Position numbers and translations under genes: made by a program
Part shown: in pieces, positions 29,263 to 54,189 of the stretch
Layout: each line of letters opens with the position of its first letter
How positions within the stretch are numbered: position 1 is the first letter of the stretch
The notes under the pieces: generated by a model
What the model was told of the DNA's origin: nothing
Database searches by the model: none
The model's input: only the letters and a program-made list of their open reading frames with translations
NCBI GenBank assembly: GCA_016196755.1
Contig: JACPXC010000058.1
Span: 1-64,000 of the forward strand
Source of the DNA: Elusimicrobiota bacterium
GTDB lineage: Bacteria; Elusimicrobiota; Elusimicrobia; UBA1565
Reading direction: 5' to 3'
DNA: 64,000 nucleotides

Positions 29263-29268
29263 GGGGGG

Positions 29269-37920: not shown

Positions 37921-39072
37921 GTGCGAACCTTGGCGCGCGTCCTGCTTGCGGCCGTGCTCGTCTCCCCGGCGGCGGGGGAGGAGCCCATGGCGAGGGAACC
38001 TTGGGTGACGGCGTATTATCCCGGCTGGCGGCAGGCCCGCTTGAGCCCGGCCGACATCGATTTCGGCGCCGTGACGCACCTGATCCACTTCTCGGTCGTC
38101 CCGCGCGACGACGGCAGCCTCGACGCGAAGATCAACCTGCTCAAGCCGGCCAACGTCCGGGCCGCCGTGTCGGCTTCCCACGCGGCGGGCAAGAAGATCC
38201 TTTTCACGGTGGGGGGGCAGGGCTCGCGGGAGCGCTTCGTCTCGGCGATGGGCGACGGGCGGCGGAGGGTCTTCATCGCGTCTCTTATCGCCTTCATGCG
38301 CGAGAACGGCTACGACGGCATCGACGTCGACATGGAGGAGGTCCTGCCCGCCGACGCCAAGGCCTTCTCGCGCTTCATCACCGAGCTGCGCGCGGAGCTC
38401 GACGCCATCACCCCGCGGCCGCTCCTCACCGCGGCGGTGCTCTGGGAGCCGGCGCTCTTCGCCCGCTTGGCCGGGTCCTTCGACCAGATCAACCTCATGA
38501 CCTACAACCTCGCGGGCCCGTACCCGGGCTGGGTGGTGTGGCACAGCGGGGCGCTCTACGACGGCGGCCAGCGCTTTCCCAACGGGCGGGCCCCTCTTCC
38601 CTCGGTCGACGGACTCGTGGCGACCTTCCTGGCGGCCGGCGTGCCGCGCGAGAAGCTGGGCGTGGGCTTGAGCTTCAACGGCTACGTCTGGAGCGGCGGC
38701 GAGGTCAGCCGGCCGCGGCAGACCTGGAAGGATCCTCCGGCGATGAGGAACGTCCCCTACTACGCCCTGGCCGACACCTACCGCATCAGGGAATACGACG
38801 ACAAGAGCCCCGGCTATCACTGGGACGCCCATGCGCAGGCGCCCTATCTCAGCATCGAGGGGGCCGACCCCGCGGACGCGCAGTTCGTCTCCTATGAGAA
38901 CGAGCTCAGCGTGGGGAAGCGCGTGGAGTACGTGCGCGAGAAAGGCCTGGGCGGCCTCATCGTCTGGGACTTGGGCGCCGCCTGGCGCGCCGACCAGCCT
39001 CCCGAGCGGCGCGACGTCCTGCTGCAGGCCCTAAAGCAGGCGCGCCTGGGCGGCAAGCCGGGGCCGCGGTGA
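37921..39072 (+). CDS. Glycoside hydrolase family 18 (chitinase-like)
   Basis: A 383-aa exported enzyme with a signal peptide at residues 1-20. The GH18 catalytic signature DGIDVDME is at residues 132-139, with Glu139 the expected proton donor. Other barrel strands are VTAYYPGWRQ, ILFTVGGQGS, INLMTYNLAG and GGLIVWDLG. The substrate could be chitin, peptidoglycan GlcNAc-MurNAc or the organism's own amino-sugar polymer. The GTG at 37921 follows CAGGAGG. The stop overlaps glmU by 4 nt, an unusual pairing of a GlcNAc-polymer hydrolase with a UDP-GlcNAc synthase. Confidence 0.9.
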   Translation: MRTLARVLLAAVLVSPAAGEEPMAREPWVTAYYPGWRQARLSPADIDFGAVTHLIHFSVVPRDDGSLDAKINLLKPANVRAAVSASHAAGKKILFTVGGQGSRERFVSAMGDGRRRVFIASLIAFMRENGYDGIDVDMEEVLPADAKAFSRFITELRAELDAITPRPLLTAAVLWEPALFARLAGSFDQINLMTYNLAGPYPGWVVWHSGALYDGGQRFPNGRAPLPSVDGLVATFLAAGVPREKLGVGLSFNGYVWSGGEVSRPRQTWKDPPAMRNVPYYALADTYRIREYDDKSPGYHWDAHAQAPYLSIEGADPADAQFVSYENELSVGKRVEYVREKGLGGLIVWDLGAAWRADQPPERRDVLLQALKQARLGGKPGPR

Positions 39073-40367
39073 ATGTTCCTGACATCGTGGTGCTGGCCGG
39101 GGGGGCGGGCTCGCGGATGCGGGTCGACCACCCCAAGGCTCTCCATCCCGTCTTCTTCCGCCCCATGATCCGCCACGTGCTCGACGCGGCCGCGGCGCTC
39201 CCGCACCGGGCCTTCTGCCTGGTCGTCGGCCGGGGGGAGCGCGAGCTGCGCGAGCAGTGCCGGGCGTATCCGGACCTGCGCATCGTCCGCCAAGAGGCCC
39301 CGCAGGGCGCCGCCGACGCCCTGCGCGAGGTCCAGTCGGCCCTGGGCGGACCGGACGCCGACGTCCTGGTACTCGAGGGCGACCGCGCCCTCTTGAGCGC
39401 GCGTTCGCTGGCCGAGCTGCTGAGCGCGCATGCCGCCTCCGGCGCCGCCTGCACCCTGGGCCTGCCGGCGGGCCCGGAGCGGGAACCGGCCGCCTACTGC
39501 TTCCGCTCCCGGGACCTCTTCAACGCGCTCAAGCTGGACCCGTCCGGGGCGGACGGCGCCGAGCCGACGCTGGGCGACGCCGCGGCGGCGCTGGCGGCCC
39601 AGGGCGGCGCGATCTCGGAGTACCGCTTCGCCGATCCCGACGAGACCTTGGACATCAACGACCACGAGGGTCTGTGGCGCGTCGAGGCCGTCATGCGCGC
39701 GCGCCTCAACCGGGAGCTCATGCTCAAGGGGGTCTCGATCCAGGACCCAGGCGCGACGCTCATCGACCCGCGCTGCCGGATAGAGCCCGACGTCCGGATC
39801 GAGGCGGGCTGCACGCTGATCAACTCGACGATCGGAGCCGGGGCGGTGCTCGAGAACTCCTGCCGGGTGATAGATTCCGAGGTGGGCCAGGGCAGCACCA
39901 TCCGCCAGGGGACCTGCCTGGAAAAGTCCCGGGTGGGGAGGGACTGCCGGCTGGGGCCCTACGCGCGCTTGCGCGCGGGCTCGCACCTCGACGACGCCGT
40001 CTGGGTGGGGAGCTTCGTCGAGATCGAGAACGCTGCTTTGGGCTCCGGGACGCGCGCGGCGCATCTGAGCTTCATCGCCGACGCCCTGATCGGGCGCAAC
40101 GTCGAGATCGGCTGCGGCTTCATCGCCTGCAACTCCAGCGGCCGGCCGCTCAAGCAGCGCACGGTCATCGAGGACAACGTCTTCATCGGGAGCGCCTCCC
40201 AGGCGATCGCCCCGGTGACTTTGGGCGCGGGGAGCTTCATCGCCACGGGGACCAGCGTCACCGAGGACGTTCCTCCCGACTCCTTCGTGATCAGCCGCGG
40301 CCGCCAGGTCACCAAGCCCGGCTACGCCAAGAAGTACGGGCGGGCAAAAGGCGCCCCGGCGGCCTGA
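39069..40367 (+). CDS. glmU: Bifunctional UDP-GlcNAc pyrophosphorylase / GlcN-1-P acetyltransferase
   Basis: A 432-aa protein. The N-terminal uridylyltransferase loop is VVLAGGAGSRMRVDHPKALH. The middle has QGAADALREV and DETLDINDHEGLWRVE, and the left-handed beta-helix starts near residue 225. The acetyltransferase site AAHLSFIADALIGRNVEIG with its catalytic His is near 337, and NSSGRPLKQRT and IGSASQAIAPVTLGAGSFI follow. It is slightly shorter than E. coli GlmU (456 aa), with the loss in the N-terminal half, so uridylyltransfer should be checked. It completes the GlmS-GlmM-GlmU route within this window. GTG start at 39069. Confidence 0.9.
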   Translation: MNVPDIVVLAGGAGSRMRVDHPKALHPVFFRPMIRHVLDAAAALPHRAFCLVVGRGERELREQCRAYPDLRIVRQEAPQGAADALREVQSALGGPDADVLVLEGDRALLSARSLAELLSAHAASGAACTLGLPAGPEREPAAYCFRSRDLFNALKLDPSGADGAEPTLGDAAAALAAQGGAISEYRFADPDETLDINDHEGLWRVEAVMRARLNRELMLKGVSIQDPGATLIDPRCRIEPDVRIEAGCTLINSTIGAGAVLENSCRVIDSEVGQGSTIRQGTCLEKSRVGRDCRLGPYARLRAGSHLDDAVWVGSFVEIENAALGSGTRAAHLSFIADALIGRNVEIGCGFIACNSSGRPLKQRTVIEDNVFIGSASQAIAPVTLGAGSFIATGTSVTEDVPPDSFVISRGRQVTKPGYAKKYGRAKGAPAA

Positions 40368-40622: not shown

Positions 40623-40651
40623 TGCGTCCTCCTTTATAGATGCGCGCGGCG

Positions 40652-41077
40652 TCAATCGCAGACCGGATAGCTGGGCTCGAAGCCGAGCTTCCGGACCAGT
40701 TCCATGGCGTTGGCGGTCTGGTCGACCGCCAGGACGATCCTCATGTTCTCGCCCTCGATGCTGCTGTAGAGCGAGAGGATGTTTATGTCCTTTTCCGCGA
40801 GGGACCGGGCGAGCTTGTGGAGCTCCCACGGATGGTGGGGGATCTCGAGCTCGAACACCTGCTCCTCGCGGACCGAGATCCCGATGCGCTTGAGCTTCTC
40901 GCGCATCGCGGTGCTGTGGGGGGCCAGGAACTGGATCGTCGTCTTGTCGCCTTGGCGGATCGTGATCACCGATTTATAAGGGACCTTCTCCTTGACCAGC
41001 AGCCGGGTCAGCCGCGCGTGCACGGCCGGCTCATCGGGGAATTCGACGCTGTACTGGGCCATCGCTTCTTGTCGCAT
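40652..41077 (-). CDS. ACT-domain protein (2)
   Basis: A 141-aa protein. Residues about 5-65 form a compact alpha/beta unit (YSVEFPDEPAVHARLTRLL, SVITIRQGDKTTIQFLAP). Residues about 78-138 resemble an ACT domain: VFELEIPHHPWELHKLARSL, DINILSLYSSIEGENMRIVLAV. It probably senses a small molecule, but no catalytic domain is attached. The ATG at 41077 follows GGAGG, with a TATAAT at 41104-41099 on this strand. It is probably co-transcribed with the smaller ACT gene 29 nt downstream. Confidence 0.78.
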   Translation of the reverse strand: MRQEAMAQYSVEFPDEPAVHARLTRLLVKEKVPYKSVITIRQGDKTTIQFLAPHSTAMREKLKRIGISVREEQVFELEIPHHPWELHKLARSLAEKDINILSLYSSIEGENMRIVLAVDQTANAMELVRKLGFEPSYPVCD

Positions 41078-41278
41078 GTTTCCTCCGGCTACATCCCCAT
41101 TATAGGCGCCGCCCTCCGCGCCGGCCCATAGAGGCGCTGTAGCGATAATTTCACGTCGCGCTCGCGGGGCGTTCATGGGGCCGACAAGGATTTGTTCCAC
41201 AGCCGCCATGGCTCGCGGCGGGCGGTTCGGTCTAGACTCATCCACGGGTCGGCAACCGGAGACGCAAGGAGGACTCGA

Positions 41279-42007
41279 ATGATCGTCGCGGCACATCAGC
41301 CCAACTTCATGCCGTGGGTCGGCTATTTCGACAAGATGCGCAAGGCGGATCTCTTCGTCTCCGTCGACCACGTCCAGATGGAGCGCCAGAGCTTCCAGAA
41401 CCGCACCCGGATCAAGACCGGCGCCGGCGCCCAGTGGATCACGGTCCCGGTCGTCCAGGCGTCGCGCGACGAGCTCATTATGGAGAAGCGGATCGACAAC
41501 AGCCGCGACGGCCGCTCGCGCTGGAGCCGGACGATGCTTCTGACGCTCAAGTACGCCTACCAGTCGGCGCCGGGCTTCAAGGCGTGGGAGAACGCGTTGG
41601 CCGAGGTCCTCGAGGCCCGCGAGGAGAGCCTCAGCGAGCTCAACGCCCGCCTCATCGAGCTCTTCCGCGGAGCGCTGGGGATCCAGACCCCTATGGTCAA
41701 GAGCTCTAGCCTCGCCGTCGAGGGTCGCAGATCCGAGATGGTCCTCGACCTGTGCCGGAAGGTAGGCGCCGACGCCTATCTGGCCGGCGCGGGGGCGTCG
41801 AAGGGCTATCTCGACGTCGCGGCGTTCGAGCGGGCCGGGATCAAGGTCCTCTGGCAGGACTTCCAACACCCGCGCTACCGGCAGTTGCCCGGCCCCGAGG
41901 AGTTCATCGAGCGGCTCTCGGTCGTCGACATGCTGTTTAACTGCGGCACCGAGGCCGCCGACTACTTCCGCCCCGCGGTCAGCCCTCGGACGCGGGTGCC
42001 GGCATGA
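41279..42007 (+). CDS. WbqC-like family protein
   Basis: A 242-aa protein of the WbqC family. The N-terminus IVAAHQPNFMPWVGYFDKMRKAD with the HQP-F-PW-GYF pattern is diagnostic, followed by VQMERQSFQNRTRIK (usually -----NRN-I) and WITVPV. The C-terminal segment is GADAYLAGAGASKGYLD and KVLWQDFQHPRYRQ. WbqC-type genes occur in O-antigen and glycan clusters and are thought to modify amino sugars; no reaction is firmly assigned. AGGAGG lies before the ATG. The stop overlaps the PIG-L gene by 4 nt, the first junction of a tightly coupled cluster. Confidence 0.9.
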   Translation: MIVAAHQPNFMPWVGYFDKMRKADLFVSVDHVQMERQSFQNRTRIKTGAGAQWITVPVVQASRDELIMEKRIDNSRDGRSRWSRTMLLTLKYAYQSAPGFKAWENALAEVLEAREESLSELNARLIELFRGALGIQTPMVKSSSLAVEGRRSEMVLDLCRKVGADAYLAGAGASKGYLDVAAFERAGIKVLWQDFQHPRYRQLPGPEEFIERLSVVDMLFNCGTEAADYFRPAVSPRTRVPA

Positions 42008-42654
42008 GCTCCCGCGCCGATGTCCTGTCGAAATACGCAGGGGAGACCGTCCTGGCCGTCGGGGCTCATCCGGACGACCTCGAGCTCGCCGTCGGGGGGA
42101 CCTTGGCGCGCCTGAGCCGGAGCGGCGCGCGGGTGGTGATGGCCGTCCTCAGCATCCCCAACAACCTCCAGGTGCGGCGCGCCGAGGCTCGCAAGGCCGC
42201 CGAGACCCTGGGCTGCGAGGTCCGCCTGCTCACCGCCGGACGGTGCTGCCGGGTCGAGGACCTCAAGAACCACGAGCTGGTCGGCATGATCGACGGGCTG
42301 GTCAAGGAGCTCAGGCCCGCGGCGATGTTCTCGCACTGCCTGGCGAATCTCCATCTCGACCATAAGCTGGCCTACGACGCCTGCATGGCCTCCCAGAGGC
42401 TGGGCTACTTCGACCTGTTCTGCTACTCACCGACCAGTTGTCACCAGGTGCACATCCCTTTTCAGCCTCAGATCTATATCGACATCTCGACGACCATCGA
42501 GGCGAAGATGAAGGCGATCCGGCACCACGCCAGCCAGTTCGAGAAGCGGGGGCTCAAGACCGACCATTATCGCGCCGCGTCGGGCCAGGTCGGCGGGATC
42601 GTCGGAGTCGACTACGCCGAGGGTCTGGAAGTGGTGCGGATGAGGCTCAACTGA
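42004..42654 (+). CDS. PIG-L family de-N-acetylase (1)
   Basis: A 216-aa zinc-dependent deacetylase of the LmbE/PIG-L family. The metal and catalytic motif GAHPDDLELAVGG is near residues 20-32. NLHLDHKLAYDAC near 118 gives the second zinc motif (H-x2-H), and PTSCHQVHIPFQPQIYIDIS near 146 is the family's sugar-binding region. Relatives MshB and BshB deacetylate GlcNAc-inositol and GlcNAc-malate in low-molecular-weight thiol synthesis; others act on glycolipids or natural products. The second PIG-L gene at 44214 is a paralogue with the same block order. The ATG overlaps the wbqC-like stop. Confidence 0.92.
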   Translation: MSSRADVLSKYAGETVLAVGAHPDDLELAVGGTLARLSRSGARVVMAVLSIPNNLQVRRAEARKAAETLGCEVRLLTAGRCCRVEDLKNHELVGMIDGLVKELRPAAMFSHCLANLHLDHKLAYDACMASQRLGYFDLFCYSPTSCHQVHIPFQPQIYIDISTTIEAKMKAIRHHASQFEKRGLKTDHYRAASGQVGGIVGVDYAEGLEVVRMRLN

Positions 42655-42681
42655 GCGCGCCGGGAACGCGCTGGAGGGACT

Positions 42682-42840
42682 ATGAAGATTCGAACGGCCG
42701 AGGGAGAAGGGGAGTACGGCACCGAACGCGAGCGCCGGCGCCGCCGCTGGAGCGAGATGGAGCGCAAGATGCGCAAGGAACGGCGCCACCCCCGGGTAGA
42801 GGATTACTACGGGACCCGGGGCGCGGGGGTGAAATCATGA
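42682..42840 (+). CDS. 52-aa basic protein between PIG-L and GS-like genes
   Basis: A 52-aa frame with GGAGGG well placed before its ATG at 42682 and an ATGA overlap with the next gene at its end. The product is highly charged: an Arg/Glu-rich helix (RERRRRRWSEMERKMRKERR) and a Tyr/Gly/Arg tail. It has no hydrophobic segment or Cys. The good ribosome site and coupled end argue that it is translated. The resemblance to a small RNA- or protein-binding helix is only compositional. I recognise no family. Confidence 0.65.
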   Translation: MKIRTAEGEGEYGTERERRRRRWSEMERKMRKERRHPRVEDYYGTRGAGVKS

Positions 42841-44204
42841 CCGTCGCCGAAGCCGCCGCTTTGCCGAATGAGGCCGCAGTCCCGGCCGCGGTCCCGTCGA
42901 CCGGGCCCGCCGCCGCGGTCTCCCCTCCGTCATTTGAGTCCGTCAGCCGCCTGATCGCCGCGCGCGGGATCAGCTTCGCCGAGTTCTGGTTCACGGACCT
43001 GGGAGGCTATCCGTGGCGGATCGCCATGGCCGCCGACGCGGTCACGGAGAAGCTCTTCTCCTCCGGCCTGACCCTAGACGGCCAGCCGGTCGGAGGCGCC
43101 TGGGACGGCGTCATGCTGCTCCAGCCGCGCTTCGACGCCGTCTACGCGGACCCCTCGGGTCCGAGCCTTACGATGTTCTGCGACATCCTGGATCCCTCCA
43201 GCCGCGCCCCGATGGAGCTCGAGCCGCGCCACGTCCTCGAGCGCGCCGCGAACCTCGTCGAGGAGCGCCTGGGTGCCAAGCTCGTGCTCGGCGCGGAGCC
43301 CGAGTTCATCCTGCTGCAGCCCGACGGAAAGCCGGCCGGAGAGCGCGTCGTATGGGACTTCCTGCGCGGTCTGGCCTTGGCGCTCGGCGAGGCGGGGGTC
43401 AAGGTGGATTGGTTCCGCACCGGTCCGGCCTCCGGGCAGGGCCGCGTCCAGATGCGCGCGGGAGCGCCGCTGCTCATGGCCGATCGCGTGATGCTCTATC
43501 GCCAGTGCGCCTCGACGCTGTCTCGCGCGCAGGGCCTGAAGGTGGCCTTCCTGCCCAGGCCCCTGGCCGGAGGCGGGACGCCCGGGATGCCCATCCATCT
43601 GGCGCTCTGGAAGGACGGGGTCAATCTGTTCCACGACGGCCGGGGTTGGGCCCTGACCAGCCCGCTCTGCCGGTCCTTCGCCGCCGGGCTCCTCACGCAC
43701 CTGCGTTCGCTGGCGGCCTTCTGCGCGCCGACCAGCAACTCGTACCGCCGGCTCATCTCCGGGGTCTCCGGGCCCACGTCGCCGCTGTTGTCGGCGGTAG
43801 ACCGGGCGGCCGCCTGCCGGATCCCGGCCCGCTGCACGTCGCCGGGCTCGCGCCGCGTGAAGTTCTGCTGCCCTGACTCCACCGCGAACCCGTATCTGGC
43901 CTTCGCGGCGGTCCTGATGGCGGGGCTAGACGGGATCGAACGGGGCCTCGAGGCTCCGGTCGACGGCGGGGAGCCGATGCGTGTGCGGATGCCGCATTCC
44001 TTGGAGGGCGCGCTGGACTCGCTCGACGGAGACCGCGCCTACCTGACCAGGACGGGGGTCTTCACCGACCGCCTCGTCGACGCCTGGATCAAGGACCGCT
44101 GGACGCGTTTTGTCGTTCCTATCCGCTCGCGCCCGCATCCCTGGGAGCTGGCGGAAGGCGAGGAGCACGGACGGACGCGCGGCGGCGACGCCGCGATCAC
44201 CTGA
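42837..44204 (+). CDS. Glutamine-synthetase-fold protein with degenerate active site
   Basis: A 455-aa GlnA-superfamily member: GAEPEFILL at residues 152-160, LALWKDGVNLFHDG, TSNSYRRLISG, DRAAACRIP and PDSTANPYLAFAAVLMAGLDGI. Compared with GlnA numbering, the Glu129/Glu131 equivalents (Glu154, Glu156) are kept. Position 212 is Thr195/Arg194, 220 is Arg203, His269 is Pro, Glu327 is Ser, Glu357 is Lys342 and Arg359 is Cys344. Arg321 and Arg339 equivalents remain. Normal ammonia ligation to glutamate is therefore unlikely; another ligase reaction or a binding role is possible. It sits between two PIG-L deacetylases, which make free amines that a ligase could acylate. Start at 42837, overlapping the 52-aa gene. 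Confidence 0.85.
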   Translation: MTVAEAAALPNEAAVPAAVPSTGPAAAVSPPSFESVSRLIAARGISFAEFWFTDLGGYPWRIAMAADAVTEKLFSSGLTLDGQPVGGAWDGVMLLQPRFDAVYADPSGPSLTMFCDILDPSSRAPMELEPRHVLERAANLVEERLGAKLVLGAEPEFILLQPDGKPAGERVVWDFLRGLALALGEAGVKVDWFRTGPASGQGRVQMRAGAPLLMADRVMLYRQCASTLSRAQGLKVAFLPRPLAGGGTPGMPIHLALWKDGVNLFHDGRGWALTSPLCRSFAAGLLTHLRSLAAFCAPTSNSYRRLISGVSGPTSPLLSAVDRAAACRIPARCTSPGSRRVKFCCPDSTANPYLAFAAVLMAGLDGIERGLEAPVDGGEPMRVRMPHSLEGALDSLDGDRAYLTRTGVFTDRLVDAWIKDRWTRFVVPIRSRPHPWELAEGEEHGRTRGGDAAIT

Positions 44205-44213
44205 GGAGGCTAG

Positions 44214-44876
44214 ATGACATCGACCGTGACGCAAGCGGCGGGACTGCTGTCGAAGTACAAGGAGAAGAAGGTGCTCGTCGTGGGGGCGCACCCCGACGAC
44301 ATCGAGCTGGGGGCGGGGGGCACGGTGGCCCGCCTGGCGGCTCAGGGCTCGGACGTGAAGATGGTGGTCGTCTGCACCCCGAACAACCTGGCCAAGCGCA
44401 ACGCCGAGGCCCGCAAGGCCGCGGAGATCCTGGGGGCGGGGATCGAGTTCCTGTTCCCGGAGAAGGAGATGCGCGTGGAGGACGTAAAGACCTATCAGCT
44501 CATCGACCGGATCGACCGTCTGGTGCGCGAGCTCGACCCGGCCGTGGTGATCACCCACGCGGCCTCGAACTTCCACTTGGACCATGTGATGGTCCATAAG
44601 GCCTGCGTGGGAGCCCAGCGGCTGCATTTCTTCGACATGCTCTGCTTCTATCCCACGAGCTGTCACCCGGTCAGCACCCCGTTCCATCCCCAGGCCTACA
44701 TCGACATCTCGGGCACCATCGAGCGGAAGATGGCGGCGATCAACCAGCACGTCACGCAGTTCGGCTGCCGCGGGCTGACGACGGACCACTACGTGGCGGT
44801 CGCCCGGGAGTACGGGCGCCTGGCCGGTGTGGAGTACGCCGAGGGCCTCGAGGTGTCGCGGTTGAACCTCGGTTGA
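44214..44876 (+). CDS. PIG-L family de-N-acetylase (2)
   Basis: A 220-aa paralogue of the protein at 42004. Shared blocks are GAHPDDIELGAGG, TPNNLAKRNAEARKAAEILG, NFHLDHVMVHKACVGAQRL, YPTSCHPVSTPFHPQAYIDIS and GVEYAEGLEVSRLNLG; zinc and catalytic residues are intact in both. TGAGGAGG lies before the ATG, 9 nt after the GS-like stop. The two copies probably deacetylate related but different sugars or work as a heteromer. Members of this family take GlcNAc-containing small molecules, glycolipids or nucleotide sugars; the substrate here is unknown. Confidence 0.92.
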   Translation: MTSTVTQAAGLLSKYKEKKVLVVGAHPDDIELGAGGTVARLAAQGSDVKMVVVCTPNNLAKRNAEARKAAEILGAGIEFLFPEKEMRVEDVKTYQLIDRIDRLVRELDPAVVITHAASNFHLDHVMVHKACVGAQRLHFFDMLCFYPTSCHPVSTPFHPQAYIDISGTIERKMAAINQHVTQFGCRGLTTDHYVAVAREYGRLAGVEYAEGLEVSRLNLG

Positions 44877-44924: not shown

Positions 44925-45782
44925 ATGACCATGCGTAATCTATTGGCCGCGGCCGTCGTCGGGATCGGAGCGTGCGCCTTCGCGGGCAGCGCGTACAGCA
45001 CGGGGACCGCGGCCGTCGCGCCGGCGGCGCCCTTGAAGGCGGAGCTCGAGGCGGCGTATCGCCTCAAGGAGGAGAAGCGGACGGCCGAGGCGCTGACGGC
45101 GTTCGAGGCCATCGCCAAGAAGAACCCCCGCAACCAGGCCGTGCTCGCGGAGCTCGGCTACCTCCATGCCGGCCTCAAGCACTACAAGCAGGCGGCGAGC
45201 TACCTGGCGGCAGCGTCGCGCCGGGCCCCGTCCGACATGCGCTTGCGCATGGACCTGGGCTACATCCATCACGCCCTCAAGCAGCCGGCGGCTGCGGCGG
45301 CGCAGTTCAAGGCCGTGGCCGCGGTCCCGGGAGAGTTCCAGACCCAGGCTCAGGACGCCCTGAGCCTGGCGGCGGGCAAGCCCGCGCCGTCGGCGATCAA
45401 GCAGCGTCTCCTGCGCGAGCAGGGCTACGCGGCGCTCAATCGGCAGGACAAGGCCGGCGCGCTCAAGGCCTTCGAGGCCGCGGCGCTCAACGACCCGAAG
45501 GACGCCGTGGCGCTCAAGCAGTTGGCCTTCCTCCGGCTCGATGCCGGGTCGCTGGCCGCGGCCGCGGAGAGCCTCGAGGCGGTCCGCGCGATCGAGCCGT
45601 CGGATTACGAGGCGGCGCTGCAGCTCGGCTACACCTACGACCGGCTGCAGAAGAAGGAGCAGGCCCGCGCGGCGTTCGGCGCCGCGTTGGCGAGCTCCGA
45701 CGCGAAGCTCCATGACGCCGCTCGGTCGGCGCTGCAGTCGTCGGGCGGAGCCAGCGCTCCCGCCCTCGGCTCGCCGCGCTGA
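44925..45782 (+). CDS. Exported TPR protein, paralogue of the NfrA-like TPR region
   Basis: A 285-aa protein with a signal peptide (about residues 1-25) and four to six TPR-type helical repeats. The block DMRLRMDLGYIHHALKQPAA with GEFQTQAQDAL matches DMRLRMELGYARQASGALAA with SEFQDQAREAL in the NfrA-like protein at 45952. This one has no C-terminal barrel, so it is a soluble periplasmic version. It probably assists the exopolysaccharide export system downstream, although a strong terminator separates them. TAGGAGA precedes the ATG. Confidence 0.8.
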   Translation: MTMRNLLAAAVVGIGACAFAGSAYSTGTAAVAPAAPLKAELEAAYRLKEEKRTAEALTAFEAIAKKNPRNQAVLAELGYLHAGLKHYKQAASYLAAASRRAPSDMRLRMDLGYIHHALKQPAAAAAQFKAVAAVPGEFQTQAQDALSLAAGKPAPSAIKQRLLREQGYAALNRQDKAGALKAFEAAALNDPKDAVALKQLAFLRLDAGSLAAAAESLEAVRAIEPSDYEAALQLGYTYDRLQKKEQARAAFGAALASSDAKLHDAARSALQSSGGASAPALGSPR

Positions 45783-45801: not shown

Positions 45802-45839
45802 GCGGCCGGCCCGGAAGCCCCGGGCCGGCCGCCTCTTTT
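45802..45839 (+). terminator. Rho-independent terminator after the WbqC/PIG-L cluster
   Basis: A perfect 13-bp stem (GCGGCCGGCCCGG 45802-45814, CCGGGCCGGCCGC 45820-45832) with a 5-nt loop is followed by CTCTTTT. It closes the unit that starts at 41279 and separates it from the exopolysaccharide locus. Confidence 0.92.
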
Positions 45840-45951
45840 GGCTCATGGCACGAAGGTGAGGTTATTGTGAATCTCCCGCCGACAATCCGGCAACAAAGGA
45901 TTGACGCGGCGTCCATGGGAGGTGCAGACGCGAACCGCTACTCTCTCGTCG

Positions 45952-47577
45952 ATGAAGCGGAGCCGAAAATCGCGCGCGCCGGCGATCCTGGCGGTGGCCT
46001 GCGCGCTGCTGGCGTCGGGCTGCGCCGGCGGGGCCAAGCGCTCCACCCCGGCGGAACCCGGCCTCGCGCGGAGCCCCTCCGCGAGCCCCATGAGCCGGGC
46101 CTACGACCTCCTCAACGCCGGCCGCGCGGCCGAGGCGGAGGGCGTCCTGCGGGACATTTTGCGCGAGGACCCCCGCAACCGCCAGGCCCGGCTCGAGCTG
46201 GCATATCTCGAGGTGCGCGCGAAGCGCTGGAAGAGCGCGGTCGTCCTGCTCGGCGACCTGCTCGAGGCCGATCCCGCCGACATGCGCCTGCGCATGGAGC
46301 TGGGCTACGCCCGTCAGGCCTCCGGGGCCCTGGCGGCGGCGGCCGACGACTTCGCCATCGTGGCGCGGGGCCCCAGCGAGTTCCAGGATCAGGCGCGGGA
46401 GGCTCTCGCGGTCCTCGCCTGGCAGCAGTCGCCCGAAGCCCGCGCGATAGCGAGCAACGCCCTCATCGACAGGGGCTACGGCGAGCTCGGCCGCGGCGAG
46501 ACCGCCGCGGCCCGCGAGTCCTTCCGTGACGCCTTGCGCGCGGACCCGGGCAGGGCCGAGGTCGCCAAGCAGCTGGGCTACATGAGCCTGGCGGATGGAG
46601 ATCCCGCCGGAGCCGCCAAGGAGTTCTCCAAGGTGCGGCGGCTGTTCCCCCAGGACCACCGCACCGCGCTCGAGCTCGGCTACGTCTACGACAGCCTCCA
46701 TGACGAGGCGGGCGCGGAGAGGTCCTTCGAGGCCGCGGCCGCGAGCCCGGATTCCGAGATCCGCGAGGCGGCGGAGGCCGCCTTGCGGAATATCCGGGGC
46801 CGGAAGGACCCCTATTACGTCGACGTGTACGCCGCCCCGACGCATACCACGCGCTTCTCGGACACGATCCTGTCGCTGGAGGTCGTCGCGGGCTACAAGC
46901 CGCCGCGTTGGGGGCCTTTGAGCGCGTACCTCGCCAGCCGTCTCACGCAGGACTCCCGCTCGCGCAGCGGGACCCGGCCGGACATCTACTCGGACAACCT
47001 GGTCTCTCTCGCCCCGGGCCTCCGGCTCCAGCCCAAGGGCTATAACCTCAGCTTGACCGCCGAATGGGGGCTCTCGGTGAACCTGCTGCGCTCTCAGGAG
47101 CACCCCCATGCCACGCAGGCCGACGGCCGCGTGGTGCTCTCCGACTACCACTACTGGGGAGGTCCGGTCCGGACCTTCGTCGACCTCGGCGGCAGCCTCG
47201 GACACTACGACCGCTACCACGGCAACATCATCCTCGACCTCCAGCTTCGCGGCGGGATCGAGGTATGGGACAACGGCGTCTCCCAGCTCAGCGTCTACGG
47301 CCCGGTCAAGCTGCTCAAGGACCGGAACCGCGACTTCTACAACAACCTCTTCGAGGTCGGTCTGGGCGCCGAGTTCCAGCCCGCGACCAAGGTCAACCTG
47401 AAGGCCCGGGTGGAGCGCCTGTTCGGGCGCTACGCGGGGGTGTCGGGCCGCGACCCGAACCCGTACGGCCCGCGCTACGCCGACTGGCGCGCGACGCTCC
47501 TCTATTCCGCCCATTTCAGCTGGGAGCGGCAGCCTAGCCGCAAGCCTCGCAAGGCCAGGAACGCCTATCTATGGTGA
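45952..47577 (+). CDS. NfrA-like lipoprotein: TPR domain plus outer-membrane barrel
   Basis: A 541-aa protein. The signal peptide ends in LASGC, a proper lipobox, so it should be a lipoprotein. Residues about 50-290 are TPR repeats (LAYLEVRAKRWKSAVVLLGD and others). From about 295 the sequence turns into a barrel with alternating strands (LSLTAEWGLSVNLLRSQEHP, TFVDLGGSLGHYDRYHGN, NNLFEVGLGAEFQPATKVNL, aromatic end), matching the C-terminal region of NfrA/BcsC-type porins. It should carry a polysaccharide across the outer membrane. NfrB overlaps its end. The ATG at 45952 gives the lipoprotein signal. NfrA of E. coli is longer and not a lipoprotein. Confidence 0.82.
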   Translation: MKRSRKSRAPAILAVACALLASGCAGGAKRSTPAEPGLARSPSASPMSRAYDLLNAGRAAEAEGVLRDILREDPRNRQARLELAYLEVRAKRWKSAVVLLGDLLEADPADMRLRMELGYARQASGALAAAADDFAIVARGPSEFQDQAREALAVLAWQQSPEARAIASNALIDRGYGELGRGETAAARESFRDALRADPGRAEVAKQLGYMSLADGDPAGAAKEFSKVRRLFPQDHRTALELGYVYDSLHDEAGAERSFEAAAASPDSEIREAAEAALRNIRGRKDPYYVDVYAAPTHTTRFSDTILSLEVVAGYKPPRWGPLSAYLASRLTQDSRSRSGTRPDIYSDNLVSLAPGLRLQPKGYNLSLTAEWGLSVNLLRSQEHPHATQADGRVVLSDYHYWGGPVRTFVDLGGSLGHYDRYHGNIILDLQLRGGIEVWDNGVSQLSVYGPVKLLKDRNRDFYNNLFEVGLGAEFQPATKVNLKARVERLFGRYAGVSGRDPNPYGPRYADWRATLLYSAHFSWERQPSRKPRKARNAYLW

Positions 47578-49466
47578 TGCCGGACGCCGAATCCGTCCTG
47601 CGCGGGTTGACCTCCTTCGCCGCGGTCTCGATCCTCATCAGCGGCCTCGACGACCTCTTCATCGACCTCTGCTACCACGGCGGGGAGCTGAGGCGCCGCT
47701 TCTCGCCGCCGAACCGGCCGGCGGTCACCGAAGCCGAGCTCCGGGCGCTGCCCGAGCAGCACATCGCCGTCATGATCCCGGCTTGGCAGGAAGACGCCGT
47801 CATCGCCCGGATGCTGCACAACACCCTGGCGACGGTCGAGTACCGCAGCTACGACATCTTCGTCGGGACCTACCCCAACGACGAGGCGACGATGCTGGCC
47901 GTGGCCGCGGTCGCCGAGAGAGACCCCCGCGTGCACCGCATCGTCTGCCCGCACGACGGGCCGACGAACAAGGCCGACTGCCTCAACTGGATCATCGCGG
48001 GGATCCGCCACCACGACAAGACGTCGGGCAATCGCGCGGAGATCCTCATGCTCCACGACTCCGAGGACCTGGTCCATCCGCTCTCCTTCAAGCTCATGAA
48101 CCGGTTCATCCCCGAGGCGTCGATGGTCCAGCTCCCGGTGATCCCCTTCGAGGCGCCGGCCGCGCATCTCACCGCCGGCACCTACCTCGACGAGTTCGCG
48201 GAGTCCCACGTCAAGGACATGGTGGTGCGCGAGCGCCTCAGCGGCATGGTTCCTTCAGCGGGAGTGGGGACCGGCTTTTCGCGCGACTCCGTGGAGCGGC
48301 TGGCGGCCAAACACGACAACCAGATCTTCAACGTGGCCACCTTCACGGAGGACTACGACCTGGCCTTCCGGCTCAAGGCCATCGGGGAGCACTCGGTGCT
48401 CGTCCAGTTCTTCATCGAACGCACCCTCTCAGGAGCGGCCGGGCGCTTCGGCGAGGGGGGCCGGCTCCGCGTGGTGCGCGAGCTGGTCGGCACGCGAGGC
48501 TACTTCCCCGCCACTTTCGGCACCGCCGTCCGCCAGAAGGCGCGCTGGACCCTGGGGATCGTCTTCCACGGCTGGCAGCAGCGCGGCTGGGAGGGGGACC
48601 TGGCCCTGCGCTACATGATCTGGCGGGACCGCAAGGCCCTGTTGACGAACTCGGTCAACGTGCTCGGGTACCTGCTCCTGGCCGAGCCCCTGCTCTGCCC
48701 CCCTAGGGCCGGGGACGGTTGGCTCCACGCGGTGATCCTGCTCGACGCCGTCCTCCTCGTCAACCGCTGCGCCCAACGCGCCTGGTGCATCGCGCGGGTC
48801 TCGTGCTTGAAGCAGGCGGCGCTCTCTTTGCCGCGCATCGTCTGGGGGAACTTCATCAATTTCTTCGCGGTGGCCCGGGCCTCGTATCTCTTCGCACGGA
48901 CGGCCTTGACGGGGAAGCAGCCGGTCTGGGCCAAGACCGCCCACGCTTTCCCCACCGAGGACCAGCTCATGGGCTACAAGCGCAAGCTGGGGGACCTGCT
49001 GCTCGAGTCCCACCGGATCACCTTGGCGCATCTGGGAGAGGCGCTCGGCGCCCAGAAGGCCGGCGGGAAGCGTCTCGGCGAGACCCTAGTCGAGCTCGGC
49101 TTCCTCGAGGAGAGCGCGCTCGTCGAGGTCTTGTCGGAGCAGCTCAAGGTGGAGTCGATCCGGCTCGACTACGACAAGCTGCGCCGCGAGGACCTCGACC
49201 TCATAGGGGAATGCGCCTGCCGCGAGCACCTGATGGTGGTCGCCGACGCCTCGGTCCGTCCGGCGGTCGTGGCGGCCGCCGTCATCGATGATAAGCGCAT
49301 GAAGGGCTGGCTCGACGCGAATTTCCCCATGCCGTACCGGCTGGTCCTGGCCGGCGGACGCAGCATCGTCGGAGTGATCGAAAGAGCCAGCGCGGAGCGC
49401 GCCGGGCTCGCAGAGGCCGCCGCCGCCCCGCGTCCGGGCCTGGCGTGGAACCACCAACTGCATTGA
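47571..49466 (+). CDS. NfrB-like glycosyltransferase with C-terminal MshEN domain
   Basis: A 631-aa inner-membrane GT2-type enzyme. Near residues 8-30 lies a hydrophobic segment. The catalytic domain has HIAVMIPAWQEDAVIARML, MLHDSEDLVHP (the acidic motif), FTEDYDLAFRL (TED) and RQKARWTLGI (QxxRW). Hydrophobic segments follow near 360-430. The C-terminal 130 residues form an MshEN (GSPII_E N-terminal) domain with two tandem motifs, KLGDLLLESHRITLAHLGEA and RLGETLVELGFLEESALVEV, the c-di-GMP-binding arrangement. In E. coli, NfrB is a c-di-GMP-activated transferase making a ManNAc polymer. TGATG overlap with the nfrA-like gene; ATG 47577 is an alternative start. Confidence 0.88.
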   Translation: MVMPDAESVLRGLTSFAAVSILISGLDDLFIDLCYHGGELRRRFSPPNRPAVTEAELRALPEQHIAVMIPAWQEDAVIARMLHNTLATVEYRSYDIFVGTYPNDEATMLAVAAVAERDPRVHRIVCPHDGPTNKADCLNWIIAGIRHHDKTSGNRAEILMLHDSEDLVHPLSFKLMNRFIPEASMVQLPVIPFEAPAAHLTAGTYLDEFAESHVKDMVVRERLSGMVPSAGVGTGFSRDSVERLAAKHDNQIFNVATFTEDYDLAFRLKAIGEHSVLVQFFIERTLSGAAGRFGEGGRLRVVRELVGTRGYFPATFGTAVRQKARWTLGIVFHGWQQRGWEGDLALRYMIWRDRKALLTNSVNVLGYLLLAEPLLCPPRAGDGWLHAVILLDAVLLVNRCAQRAWCIARVSCLKQAALSLPRIVWGNFINFFAVARASYLFARTALTGKQPVWAKTAHAFPTEDQLMGYKRKLGDLLLESHRITLAHLGEALGAQKAGGKRLGETLVELGFLEESALVEVLSEQLKVESIRLDYDKLRREDLDLIGECACREHLMVVADASVRPAVVAAAVIDDKRMKGWLDANFPMPYRLVLAGGRSIVGVIERASAERAGLAEAAAAPRPGLAWNHQLH

Positions 49467-49476
49467 AGCGGAGGAG

Positions 49477-50655
49477 ATGATGAAGAAGCCCGTTGTATTG
49501 ACCGTCTTCGGTACCCGTCCCGAGGTCATCAAGCTGGCCCCCGTTCTCAGGGCGCTGCGCGAGAGCGCCGACCTCGAGTCCCGCTTCTGCGTGACCGCCC
49601 AGCACCGCCAGATGCTCGACGTCATGCTCTCCGACTTCGAGCTGCGTCCCGACTACGACCTCGACCTCATGCGCCGCGACCAGGACCTGAGCGGATTTGC
49701 GACGCGCGCCCTGGGACGCCTCCAGGACGTGCTCCGGCGGGTGCGCCCGGATTTCGTTCTCGTCCAGGGCGACACCACGACGGCGTTCGTGACGGCGCTG
49801 GCGTCCTTCTACGAGAAAGTGCCGGTGGGGCACGTGGAGGCCGGCCTGCGGTCCTACGACCGGGCCAACCCGTATCCGGAGGAGACCAACCGCGTCATGA
49901 TCTCCCGCTTGAGCGAGCTGCATTTCGTCCCGACCGACGTCGCCCGGAGGAACCTCCTCGCGGAGGGCATCCCCTCCGGCCAGATCGTCGAGACCGGCAA
50001 CACGGTCGTCGACGCTCTGCGCCACGACGCCGCGCGGCCGCGCGGCGTCAAGGAACCCGCCCTGCGGAGCGCTCTCGAGACGCTGGCGCACGGCGACAAG
50101 GCGGCGGTCGTGACGACCCACCGGCGCGAGAACCACGGCCGTCCGCTGCTGTCCTTGTGCTCGGCCTTCCAGACCCTCGTCGAGCGGCACCCCGACCTGC
50201 ACCTGTTCTACCCGGTGCACATGAACCCCAACGTCTCGAGGGTCGTACGCCGCCGCCTGCGGCACCCGCGGGTCCACCTCCTGCCCTCGCTCGATTATTT
50301 CGACCTGCTCTACCTGCTGCGCCGCTGCCACTTCGTCCTGACCGACTCCGGCGGCCTCCAGGAGGAAGGGCCGTCGCTCGGCAAGCCGGTCGTCGTCCTG
50401 CGCGAAGTGACCGAGCGGCCCGAGGGTGTGCGCGCCGGAGTCGCCGTGCTGGCCGGCACGCGCGCCGAGTGGGTCGTCCGCGCGGCGTCGCGGCTCATGC
50501 GCGACCGGGCGCACTACGCGGCGATGTCGCGCGGCTCGGGGATCTTCGGCGACGGGCGGGCCAGCGAGCGGATCGTCGCCAGCATCCGCCACCGTTTCGG
50601 TTTTCTTCGTCGGAGACCGGCGCCGTTTCGCGCGGTCATGGAAGGTTCAAAATGA
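49477..50655 (+). CDS. wecB: UDP-N-acetylglucosamine 2-epimerase (non-hydrolysing)
   Basis: A 392-aa enzyme interconverting UDP-GlcNAc and UDP-ManNAc. Motifs in order are TVFGTRPEVIKLAPVLRAL near residue 8, VQGDTTTAFV near 89, GHVEAGLRSYDRANPYPEET near 110, VTTHRRENHGRP near 209, MNPNVSRVV near 249 and LTDSGGLQEEGPSLGKPVVV near 287. All catalytic Asp, Glu and His positions seem kept. Its position directly after the NfrB-like gene matches the E. coli requirement of WecB for NfrB polymer synthesis. GGAGGAG precedes the ATG. The stop overlaps a 19-codon frame. Confidence 0.95.
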   Translation: MMKKPVVLTVFGTRPEVIKLAPVLRALRESADLESRFCVTAQHRQMLDVMLSDFELRPDYDLDLMRRDQDLSGFATRALGRLQDVLRRVRPDFVLVQGDTTTAFVTALASFYEKVPVGHVEAGLRSYDRANPYPEETNRVMISRLSELHFVPTDVARRNLLAEGIPSGQIVETGNTVVDALRHDAARPRGVKEPALRSALETLAHGDKAAVVTTHRRENHGRPLLSLCSAFQTLVERHPDLHLFYPVHMNPNVSRVVRRRLRHPRVHLLPSLDYFDLLYLLRRCHFVLTDSGGLQEEGPSLGKPVVVLREVTERPEGVRAGVAVLAGTRAEWVVRAASRLMRDRAHYAAMSRGSGIFGDGRASERIVASIRHRFGFLRRRPAPFRAVMEGSK

Positions 50656-50711
50656 AACTACCGAGCGTCCATGGCCGCCGTGCATCCATGACGTCTATCC
50701 TACGGCGATGA
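50652..50711 (+). CDS. 19-codon leader frame between wecB and the PilZ-GT2 gene
   Basis: ATG at 50652 overlaps the wecB stop (ATGA) and follows GGAAGG. The frame of 19 codons (MKLPSVHGRRASMTSILRR) ends in a TGA that overlaps the ATG of the PilZ-GT2 gene, again as ATGA. That glycosyltransferase has no ribosome site of its own, so this frame may deliver ribosomes to it by coupling. The peptide itself may be irrelevant. Confidence 0.5.
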   Translation: MKLPSVHGRRASMTSILRR

Positions 50712-52315
50712 TTCCTTCACAGGTCCCGGGACCCCTCGAGCCGGTCCGGGAGAAGCGCCAGCACCGCCGTTTCCGGGAACGCTTTCCCGTGACGCTGGTC
50801 GCGTCGAACGGCTTCGCCTCCTCGACCGTGGTGCCGGGAGCGGCCAAGGACTACGACGCGGCCGGCGCCTGCGTCCAGACCAGGCGGCCGCTGGGCGTGG
50901 GGGACGCGGTCCGCGTGCGCCTGCACCTGCCGAGGGCCATCTCCGAGTTCTTCCGCGGACTGCCCTGCGAGTTGGGCGCCAGGGTGAGCGCCCTGCGCCG
51001 CCAGAAGGCGCCGGGCGCTCCGCCCTACGAGGTGGTGGTGCGCTGGGACAAGCCGCTGGGCGAGATGGTGAACGCCGTGATCGCCTCCTACCAGCGGAAG
51101 ATCGGCGCGCTGGTCGGCCTGACGATGCTGGCCGTCGTCTGGGCCAAATGGGCCAGCCTCGACTTCTTCTGGTACGCGCCGTTCTTCTACGTCTACAGCC
51201 TCACCCTGTCGGCCTACCTGCTCTCGCGCTTCCTCATCTCCTGGCGGCACCGCCCCCCGCCCCCGAGCTCCTATACGCCCACGGTCAGCATCATCATCTC
51301 GGTGCGCAACGAGGAGGCGGCGATCGGGCGCACGGTCGACACCTGCTATCGGACGGACTATCCGGATGGGCTGCGCGAGGTCATCGTCGTCGACGATGGT
51401 TCGACCGACGGTACCGCGGCCGTGCTCCGCGGCCTTCAGCGGAAGTACGCCGGCCTCAAGCTCAGCAGCCTCCCGCCCGGCGGGAAGCGCCAGGCGATGG
51501 CCGAGGGGGTGCGCAAGGCGACGGGCGAGATCATCATCTTCGTCGATTCCGACACCTTCCTCTTCCCCGACGCCCTGCGCAACATCGTCCGCGGCTTCGA
51601 GGACCCGATGCTGGGAGCCTCGGCCGGCTACACGGAGGTCGAGAACGCCAACACCAACGCCCTGACCGGCCTGCAGGAGGTCCGCTACTTCGTCTCCTAT
51701 CGGCTGCTCAAGTCCTCGGAGAGCCATTTCGACTGCGTGACCTGCTGTCCCGGCTGCCTGTCGGCCTACCGGCGCAGGTACGTCCTAGACGTCCTCGAGC
51801 CGTGGCTCAAGCAGCGCTTCCTCGGCGCTCCGGCGACCTTCGGCGACGACCGCAGCCTGACGAACTACATCCTGCGCAAGTATCGCGTCATCTATAACGA
51901 CACGGCCGTGGCCTCTACCCTGGTCCCGGAGACCTGGGGGCACTATATGCGCCAGCAGGTGCGCTGGAAGAAATCGTGGCTGCGGGAGACTCTGATCGCC
52001 TGCGGCTTCATGTACAAGAAGCATCCCATCGCCGCGCTCTCCTTCTATTCGGCCTCGCTCTTCAGCCTCATGTCGCCCGCGATGGCCGGGCGCGTGGTCT
52101 ACCTGTCGTTTGACGGCGACAACGCCATCTTCCTCTTCTACATGCTGGGGCTGATCCTCATCGGCCTGCTGCAGTCGCTCTACTTCCTCTACCAGCGTCC
52201 CAGCCCGCATTGGCTGCTGGGGATGCTTTGGATGGCCAGCGCCCTCCTCGTCACCGGGCCGCAGACCTACTACGCGCTCCTCACGGTCCGCAAGAACCAT
52301 TGGGGGACCCGGTGA
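50708..52315 (+). CDS. PilZ-linked processive GT2 synthase (PgaC / hyaluronan-synthase-like)
   Basis: A 535-aa inner-membrane synthase. Residues about 15-125 resemble a PilZ domain: QHRRFRERFPVTL (the R-x3-R c-di-GMP motif) and KDYDAAGACVQT, where the second motif has Asp instead of the usual Ser (D-x-S-x2-G). Two membrane segments follow near 137 and 160. The GT2 domain has SIIISVRNEEAAIGRTV, VIVVDDGSTDG, FVDSDTFLFPD (DxD), GDDRSLTNYIL and QQVRWKKSWLRE (QxxRW), then four C-terminal membrane segments. This is the layout of processive GlcNAc or hyaluronan synthases. It should make the polymer handled by the deacetylases encoded next. Confidence 0.87.
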   Translation: MIPSQVPGPLEPVREKRQHRRFRERFPVTLVASNGFASSTVVPGAAKDYDAAGACVQTRRPLGVGDAVRVRLHLPRAISEFFRGLPCELGARVSALRRQKAPGAPPYEVVVRWDKPLGEMVNAVIASYQRKIGALVGLTMLAVVWAKWASLDFFWYAPFFYVYSLTLSAYLLSRFLISWRHRPPPPSSYTPTVSIIISVRNEEAAIGRTVDTCYRTDYPDGLREVIVVDDGSTDGTAAVLRGLQRKYAGLKLSSLPPGGKRQAMAEGVRKATGEIIIFVDSDTFLFPDALRNIVRGFEDPMLGASAGYTEVENANTNALTGLQEVRYFVSYRLLKSSESHFDCVTCCPGCLSAYRRRYVLDVLEPWLKQRFLGAPATFGDDRSLTNYILRKYRVIYNDTAVASTLVPETWGHYMRQQVRWKKSWLRETLIACGFMYKKHPIAALSFYSASLFSLMSPAMAGRVVYLSFDGDNAIFLFYMLGLILIGLLQSLYFLYQRPSPHWLLGMLWMASALLVTGPQTYYALLTVRKNHWGTR

Positions 52316-54189
52316 ACGGCCGGTTCCTTCGTATCTGGGCGCTGATCCTCGCCGGCTCATGCCTCTTCGGGCTCTGGATCAGCTTCGGCCGGGCTTTCGT
52401 CCGTCAGCGCTTCTTCGCCCCGCTGCCTCTCCCCGAGGCATCGCGCACCCACGCGAGCTTCGTCGCCGTGCTGCTTCCTCGGGTATCGGTGAAGCCGCGA
52501 CGCTACGCGATCTCGGCCGACCAGCTCGGGGAGCTCTTGGGCGGACTGACGGCGGCCGGGTACAACTCGATCGGGCTCGACGACGTAGAGCAGTTCTACG
52601 CTCGCGGGCGGGGCCTGCCCCCCAAGGCCCTGCTCATCGCCTTCGCCCAGGATGACCCGCGGGGTCTGGAAGCCGCCGACGAGGCGATGAGCCGCCTGCG
52701 CCTGCGCGCGGTCGCCTTCGTCGGGGGAAGCGCGGCGGTAAAGGGGGTCGAGCGGCGCCGATATCTGAGCCGCCACGCCGTCAACCAGATGCGGCGGAGC
52801 GGGACTTGGGACTTCGGCCGCGCCTGGCGCAAGCTCGCTCAGGGTACCCAGGGCGGCTCGGGCGGCTCGGGCGCCGGCGTCCGGGCCGTGCTCGACCAAG
52901 ACGGCGGCCGAGCCCCGTCGCCGGGACCCGGGACCCTGCGCTTCATCAGCTCCGAATCGGGGCTCAACGAGGTTACTACCGATCCGCGCTCGCTCAAGAT
53001 CCTCGCTCTGCGCCCCGAGCGTACTCCGGAGGAGAACGCGCGGATAGTCCGCATGTCGTGGCCGCGCGCGACGGAGTTCGCCGAGGACTTCAAGGGCGCC
53101 GGTCTGCGCCCGGACTGGGTCGCGGGCTGGGGTGTGGTCTCGGCGGGTAAAGGGCGGCTGGCGATCCTTCCTACGCCGCGTCAATCGGGAGCCGGGGTCT
53201 TCCTGCGCGGCACGGAGACCTGGCGGGACATGGTCGTGGAGTTCGCCCTCAAGAAGGTTCAGCGGGAATTCTGGGCCTACGCCCGCTACGATGAGGCCGC
53301 GGGACGCTTCATCCGCGTCGGCGCGCGCGACGGCGCGTGGTACGTCGAGCAGAAGGTCGGGCCGAACAACCTCGTCAGCATGCTCGCCCGGGCGCCGATC
53401 CGCGAGGGCGGCTTGCCCGCCAGGGTGCGACTGGTGCTCAAAGGCGGAACCGCGATCGTCCACGTCGACGGACGGATGCTCTTCGGACGCGCTCTCCGGG
53501 TCCATCCCGGGGTCTCCCGCGGCCGTCTTCTCCTGGGGGTCTACGACGCGCGCTCGGCCTCGGCCCTGGGGGTCGTCACCGGGGTGCGCGCCGCGCCGCT
53601 GCGCGAGCAATGGCTTACCTTCAACAGCTCGGCGGGCGGCTTCGACGAGGCGCTCCTCGAGCCCCTGCGTGAGGCGGCGGTCCAGGCCCGGGCCGTCTCT
53701 CCGCCTTGGATCCGGGTCGGACGCCACGGCGGGGTGTCGGTCGTCGAGTCGCAAGGGCTGCTTGTGCGCTCGTTGGCGGGGTTCTATGGCTGCCGTCTCG
53801 TGCCGACGGCGGAGCTCCCCGAGGGCAGCCTCGCGATACCGGCCGCGGCCGGCGGACCCCAGCGGCTGGCGGCCGAGCTCGTCGCCGCGGTCAGGGACTT
53901 GGGCGCCGCCGGGCTCAACATCCGCCTGCGCGCCGGCGAGCTCAGGCATGCCGAGAACGTGGCCTTCCTCAAGAGGCTGCGCGCCGACTTTCAGGTCCGG
54001 CGCTGGGAGCTGTGGACGACGGTCGACGGAGCGGCGGGGCCGGAGCCGGCGCTGGCCCGCGCCGTCGACGGAGTCCTCGTTCCCTCGCGCCGCACCCACG
54101 CGGGCTTCGAGGTGCTGGAGAGCGTCCAACGGCCGCCGGACGCCCTGGCCGCCGCCGGCGCGCGTTCGGGTACGGGAGGGGGACGATGA
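52312..54189 (+). CDS. Membrane-anchored deacetylase-like protein with LamG-like insert
   Basis: A 625-aa protein with one N-terminal membrane anchor (residues 8-26), otherwise periplasmic. Residues about 50-140 resemble the start of a NodB-type deacetylase (YAISADQLGELLGGLTAAGY, SIGLDDVEQFYARG, ALLIAFAQDDPRGLEAADEA), as in PgaB, but the metal motif is altered: AFAQDDP instead of TFDDG. Residues about 245-430 look like a LamG/DUF1080 sugar-binding fold (ETWRDMVVEFALKKVQREFW). The C-terminal part has Rossmann- or TIM-like alternation. It may bind rather than hydrolyse the polymer. GTGA overlap with the synthase and ATGA with the next gene. Confidence 0.7.
   Translation: MNGRFLRIWALILAGSCLFGLWISFGRAFVRQRFFAPLPLPEASRTHASFVAVLLPRVSVKPRRYAISADQLGELLGGLTAAGYNSIGLDDVEQFYARGRGLPPKALLIAFAQDDPRGLEAADEAMSRLRLRAVAFVGGSAAVKGVERRRYLSRHAVNQMRRSGTWDFGRAWRKLAQGTQGGSGGSGAGVRAVLDQDGGRAPSPGPGTLRFISSESGLNEVTTDPRSLKILALRPERTPEENARIVRMSWPRATEFAEDFKGAGLRPDWVAGWGVVSAGKGRLAILPTPRQSGAGVFLRGTETWRDMVVEFALKKVQREFWAYARYDEAAGRFIRVGARDGAWYVEQKVGPNNLVSMLARAPIREGGLPARVRLVLKGGTAIVHVDGRMLFGRALRVHPGVSRGRLLLGVYDARSASALGVVTGVRAAPLREQWLTFNSSAGGFDEALLEPLREAAVQARAVSPPWIRVGRHGGVSVVESQGLLVRSLAGFYGCRLVPTAELPEGSLAIPAAAGGPQRLAAELVAAVRDLGAAGLNIRLRAGELRHAENVAFLKRLRADFQVRRWELWTTVDGAAGPEPALARAVDGVLVPSRRTHAGFEVLESVQRPPDALAAAGARSGTGGGR

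Follow-up and report, generated by a model that had tools for sequence, protein, structure and literature searches.

A glutamine synthetase-fold protein lacking most catalytic metal ligands and linked to WbqC and PIG-L proteins at an exopolysaccharide-type locus of Elusimicrobiota

In Escherichia coli, NfrA, NfrB and WecB are needed for NGR, a cyclic di-GMP (c-di-GMP)-dependent surface glycan postulated to be based on N-acetylmannosamine (ManNAc) (PMC8669472; see also PMC8669469 for this exopolysaccharide system). A locus with counterparts of this system was found in the stretch of DNA analysed here (the window), the first 64,000 nucleotides of contig JACPXC010000058.1 (C21) of an Elusimicrobiota bacterium (GCA_016196755.1; 4.59 Mb in 67 contigs). 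It includes, at 41279–44876, five genes for a WbqC-family protein, a PIG-L deacetylase (PIG-L1), a 52-amino-acid open reading frame (ORF), a glutamine synthetase (GS)-like protein and another PIG-L protein (PIG-L2). The window NfrB-type protein carries an MshEN domain and shares 39 % identity with E. coli NfrB over 526 amino acids (E=1e-119), although it falls short of NF008411, the strict model for E. coli NfrB (470.8 vs 1170 bits), and WecB is also present. Unlike the NGR system, the window locus adds the WbqC/PIG-L/GS-like module and a polymerase resembling NodC and chitin synthase, and the protein in place of NfrA is matched by tetratricopeptide repeats (TPRs) only, its C-terminal half having no match to E. 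coli NfrA.

With the poly-N-acetylglucosamine system PgaABCD the locus shares a TPR protein and a PgaB-like deacetylase domain, but in the window these are fused in one protein, and the family 2 glycosyltransferase (GT2) is closer to NodC than to PgaC (152 vs 92 bits). Both window PIG-L proteins share the family and the zinc motifs of BshB and MshB, known from bacillithiol and mycothiol synthesis, but score 80 and 85 bits against a BshB1 equivalog cut-off of 182.5.

An earlier note, made from the sequence alone, had described the five genes as co-directional and joined by overlaps or short gaps. This was confirmed, with all five on the + strand: ATGA overlaps join WbqC to PIG-L1 and the 52-amino-acid ORF to the GS-like gene, and 9 bp separate the latter from PIG-L2. 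The gene order and families stood, but the cluster boundary did not, as the co-directional run continues past PIG-L2 to about 57.8 kb. The two PIG-L proteins, described as paralogues with intact zinc sites, do share 54 % identity, with the AHPDD and HxDH motifs present in each. The 52-amino-acid ORF has no Pfam or NCBIfam match, and BLAST missed its homologues in two related genomes (G025 and G055); translations of the gap between PIG-L1 and the GS-like gene in both share the pattern ER.RK.RKE.RHPR..D with it. Because recognisable homologues occupy the same place in these genomes, the ORF looks coding.

The residues of the GS-like protein were compared with those of 36 other GS proteins after alignment to E. 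coli GlnA, whose positions are used throughout. The residue roles (metal ligands, flap) and the Salmonella numbering follow textbook knowledge of GS. Among the six ligands of the n1 and n2 metals (E129, E131, E212, E220, H269 and E357), only E129 and E131 remain, in 7/7 members. The other four are uniformly replaced (E212G, E220R, H269P and E357K in 7/7 GS-like proteins; E/E/H/E in 36/36 other GS proteins), two of them with charge reversal to Arg and Lys, and the C-terminal half of a split copy in genome G044 shows the same four changes. The protein is therefore degenerate, as had been noted, in a way that is identical in every relative. Flap Glu327 is gone in all members, R359 is Cys except in G035 and a Myxococcales copy, and both the Y179 and the Y397 loop are missing. 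D50, E129, E131, H271, R344 and R355 are retained; all but D50 of these, with the fold and domain order, were counted as likenesses to type I GS (GlnA), whereas the replacement of E212, E220, H269, E357 and E327, the two loop deletions and the linkage of the gene to polysaccharide genes set it apart.

In an AlphaFold2 model (predicted template modelling score 0.84) the GS-like protein is predicted to fold as a GS, nearest to type I. In Foldseek searches the E. coli enzyme was the top solved structure (TM 0.81/0.85), and M. tuberculosis GS was also matched. Against TIGR00653 (type I GS) it scored 254.5 bits, not reaching the curated cut-off of 429.15, and its Gln-synt_N match was slightly below the cut-off. 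Because four of the six metal ligands are gone, the protein should not be a working glutamine synthetase, and ordinary GS chemistry is not expected. The host genome encodes a separate GS with all six ligands intact.

The GS-like proteins form a single clade with 100/100 support and a long stem; its sister group is unsure, and long branches meet in the tree. Third codon positions vary most between relatives, more than twice as much as second positions in the Elusimicrobiota pairs tested, so the gene is not simply decaying. GS is among the best-studied enzyme folds, and in the literature searched we found no bacterial GS relative with a uniformly lost metal site yet under selection, and nothing usable on such a protein together with PIG-L or on GS pseudoenzymes. 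The GS-like protein is best read as repurposed, and would act as a non-classical partner in a module that modifies amino sugars of a surface polysaccharide. A role as subunit or regulator would be the simplest reading of the lost metal ligands combined with strict conservation.

Six further Elusimicrobiota genomes and a Myxococcales metagenome-assembled genome (MAG) encode relatives of the GS-like protein at 44–66 % identity. Whole or nearly whole genes are present in the window genome, G025, G055, G032, G049, G044, G035 and the Myxococcales MAG (JAJXSP010000020.1); these eight carriers are mostly draft MAGs, the majority from one order. The copy in G044, a single-contig assembly, is split by a frameshift, and G052 holds a fragment. 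In a phylum panel of 341 genomes, seven had a strong match (E<=1e-70), and the window-type PIG-L (PIG-L1 clade) occurred in nine, including all seven of these. A wider scan of 84,980 species (one genome each) with two short peptide patterns, which is blind to members varying in both, yielded these carriers and ordinary GS proteins.

WbqC lies within a few genes of the GS-like gene in 7/7 relatives and PIG-L does so too in 6/7. The window order of WbqC, PIG-L1 and GS-like is kept in G025, G055, G032 and G044, while G049 has GS-like, PIG-L2, a divergent ACT gene, WbqC and PIG-L1; PIG-L2 adjoins the GS-like gene in both G044 and G049. In G035 the GS-like gene directly adjoins WbqC, and the PIG-L gene lies on a different contig. 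The Myxococcales GS-like gene is followed by an opposite-strand gene, rhodanese-like by eye, and then an overlapping WbqC–PIG-L pair. The linkage of the GS-like gene to PIG-L, by which the earlier note had proposed to judge its reading, thus holds in relatives, with WbqC, across two phyla, and no ordinary nitrogen-metabolism genes were seen alongside it. In a set of 57 relatives the GS-like gene was present in eight genomes (one as a fragment), seven of which had the window-type PIG-L (P 1e-6; the exception was the fragmentary G052), and all nine genomes with the window-type PIG-L were among the 12 with the GT2 (P 2e-8); these hypergeometric values ignore shared ancestry and are a guide only. 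NfrB was present in six of the 57, five of which had the GS-like gene. As a separate observation, PIG-L1 of G049 (L029, L042) has HEDR in place of HxDH and so lacks the third zinc ligand, and PIG-L2 of the same genome is intact; because of this loss, a genome with two PIG-L proteins may be able to do without one of them.

WbqC itself was found in 96 of the 341 phylum genomes and on at least 80 viral contigs. For 80 of the latter (IMG/VR; L129–L208) a few kilobases around each WbqC gene were fetched, and 33 had a nearby PIG-L; the GS-like gene was absent from the viral contigs searched. Seven Elusimicrobiota loci (L075, L076, L084, L087, L092, L096 and L097) have the order WbqC, AAA-type ATPase, PIG-L; such loci resemble exopolysaccharide-associated ATPase loci. 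As in the window, both families lie close together in these Elusimicrobiota and viral pairs, but there is no GS-like match and the PIG-L is distant (about 26–28 % identity). Because the pair occurs in these other loci and viral contigs, WbqC with PIG-L is a recurrent pair to which the GS-like protein is a rare addition.

Polysaccharide genes trail the cluster in five carriers (G025, G049, G044, G055 and G032). The set of TPR, NfrA-like, NfrB, WecB, GT2 and PgaB-like genes is complete in G025 and G049, and G044 has it without the GT2 at the same position; in G055 the TPR gene follows until the contig end, and in G032 the GT2 follows directly. In most carriers the cluster stands at the head of an exopolysaccharide locus with NfrB, WecB and a chitin-synthase-like polymerase, a context that the earlier note missed, and a modified polysaccharide precursor is therefore a likelier product than a free thiol-like small molecule. 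We give about even odds to a reading in which the cluster forms the precursor-modifying end of an exopolysaccharide locus of c-di-GMP type, with the GS-fold protein as a dedicated partner. The PIG-L enzymes would strip the N-acetyl group from an amino-sugar precursor, freeing an amine, and WbqC would handle or re-substitute the deacetylated sugar before polymerisation. The GS-fold protein, without the GS metal site, would not use the glutamyl-phosphate chemistry of classical GS. It would most probably serve WbqC or PIG-L as a subunit or regulator that binds an anion or a nucleotide, with the Arg (position 220) and Lys (357) occupying former metal-ligand sites. NfrB, the chitin-synthase-like GT2 or both would then polymerise the sugar, and the TPR and PgaB-like proteins would export and trim the product. 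We infer the order of these steps, the sugar and the role of the GS-like protein; the modification steps are probably cytoplasmic, as no signal peptide is visible by eye at the N-termini. Such a scheme bears on possible changes to the amino sugars of polymers of the NfrB type, which in E. coli serve as a phage receptor.

Several observations weigh against this scheme. G035 and the Myxococcales MAG have the GS-like gene and WbqC but no Nfr genes nearby, and the module is therefore not tied to one polymer; G032 lacks NfrB. In the window, a terminator-like hairpin at 45802–45832 (13 GC pairs, T-rich tail) lies in the gap between the TPR and NfrA-like genes and may split the transcript, cutting the module off from the Nfr genes. 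Terminator-like sites overall were no more numerous than in shuffled sequences, and a promoter scan found none.

The partnership with the GS-like protein and PIG-L gives a handle on the function of the widespread WbqC family, for which no functional paper was found in the literature searched. WbqC might be a ligase with a HUP-class fold that acts after PIG-L, by analogy with BshC and MshC, the GS-like protein being accessory; we regard this as possible but on balance doubtful. It is compatible with the precursor-modification scheme and names a chemistry, and it suits the much wider spread of the WbqC–PIG-L pairing than of the GS-like gene. The N-terminal motif resembles that of HIGH-type enzymes by eye, and HUP proteins have the highest probability among the weak PDB fold matches of the WbqC model (predicted local distance difference test score 93.7), namely HldC (0.66), TyrRS (0.35) and photolyase (0.33). 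However, no PDB fold match had an E value below 0.001, and a profile comparison with pantothenate synthetase (PanC, hhalign) gave a probability of 0.4 %. A sequence search also found no PDB relative, and the five significant matches in a viral structure library were all nameless.

The GS-like protein could instead catalyse a new reaction independent of the GS metal pair, with Arg and Lys in place of ligands, such as acyl or phosphoryl transfer onto an amino sugar. An invariant GQGR.QMR segment and the Lys at position 357 in members of two phyla point to a selected pocket rather than decay, but binding alone would account for this conservation equally well and the literature searched holds no precedent, so we consider this unlikely. 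A fuller version, in which a new enzyme or obligatory subunit of GS fold, with its Arg and Lys, would join WbqC and PIG-L in exchanging the N-acetyl group of the amino-sugar precursor for a different substituent before c-di-GMP-controlled polymerisation, is about equally unlikely.

The earlier interpretation had PIG-L freeing an amino sugar on which an amide is then made, taken here as the work of the GS-like protein itself, to give a new product, either an amidated amino sugar or a small molecule akin to the thiols; as a whole it is partly supported. The PIG-L linkage is real, and the GS fold is kept with E129, E131, H271, R344 and R355. Amide formation itself appears improbable, given the replacement of four metal ligands in all members (two by Arg or Lys), the loss of Glu327 throughout and of Arg359 in most members, and the deleted loops; the exopolysaccharide type of the locus also speaks against such a product. 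The stated absence of the bacillithiol ligase BshC held: a search of 120 of the 341 phylum genomes, the host's included, found it in none, and B. subtilis and two further controls gave matches (no search was made for MshC). A bacillithiol-like thiol route was rejected as the pathway on the absence of BshC and the missed BshB/MshB equivalog cut-offs. That the GS-related protein serves ordinary nitrogen metabolism or is a decaying paralogue there by chance is hardly credible, and the nitrogen-metabolism role was rejected, given the intact separate GS, WbqC close by in every carrier, and identical substitutions at 44–66 % identity across genera and two phyla with a third-position bias.

The genes of the cluster and its surroundings are listed in Table 1. 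The GlmU-like gene recurs in the corresponding region of G025, G055 and G044, and ACT-domain genes similar to the two short ones upstream of WbqC, possibly amino-acid-sensing regulators, are present in G025, G055, G032 and G049. The TPR protein in the NfrA position is kept in G025, G044 and G049, its NfrA-type label being positional. By eye, the N-terminus of the GT2 shows a PilZ-like motif (RRFRERF...DYDAAG). The last protein of the run combines many TPRs with its deacetylase domain.

Table 1. Genes of the five-gene cluster and the surrounding locus, with supporting matches
Feature	Coordinates	Strand	Evidence
Glycoside hydrolase family 18 (GH18)	37921..39072	+	PF00704 E=8.5e-44; also in G044
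GlmU-like sugar-nucleotide enzyme	39069..40367	+	TIGR01173 321.7 bits, below cut-off 366.9
Two short ACT-domain genes upstream of WbqC	40398-41131	-	PF01842 E=4.5e-7; ACT_8 E=2.3e-5
WbqC-family protein, 242 amino acids	41279..42007	+	PF08889 E=1.3e-67, 228 bits vs gathering score 21.3
PIG-L1, zinc de-N-acetylase family	42004..42654	+	PF02585 E=2e-15; AHPDD and LHLDH intact
Basic ORF, 52 amino acids	42682..42840	+	Counterparts at same place in G025, G055
GS-fold protein	42837..44204	+	PF00120 (Gln-synt_C) E=3e-65
PIG-L2, de-N-acetylase paralogue	44214..44876	+	PF02585 E=4e-21; zinc motifs intact
TPR protein	44925..45782	+	TPR families; same region in G025, G055, G044, G049
TPR protein in place of NfrA/PgaA-type export protein	45901..47577	+	TPR-only matches
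NfrB-type glycosyltransferase, MshEN c-di-GMP-binding domain	47571..49466	+	NF012033, NF053729 above cut-off
WecB, UDP-GlcNAc 2-epimerase (UDP-ManNAc supply)	49477..50655	+	TIGR00236 424.8 bits, cut-off 210
GT2 related to NodC/chitin synthase	50705..52315	+	Chitin_synth_2 E=2e-23; NodC 152 bits, below cut-off
Protein with weak PgaB N-terminal similarity	52300..54189	+	TIGR03938 E=1.6e-4, no Pfam match; conserved in relatives
TPR and PgaB-like polysaccharide deacetylase, one protein	54150..57779	+	Polysacc_deac_1 E=1.4e-13; PgaB 56 bits, below cut-off

Further upstream, at 27403–32437, another sugar-nucleotide block encodes GlmS, a DUF2334 protein and a nucleotide-sugar dehydrogenase whose best specific models were those for UDP-ManNAc dehydrogenase, with scores below cut-off. 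Small gene pairs at 12785–14046 resemble toxin–antitoxin modules by eye (Phd/ParE-like and BrnT-like).

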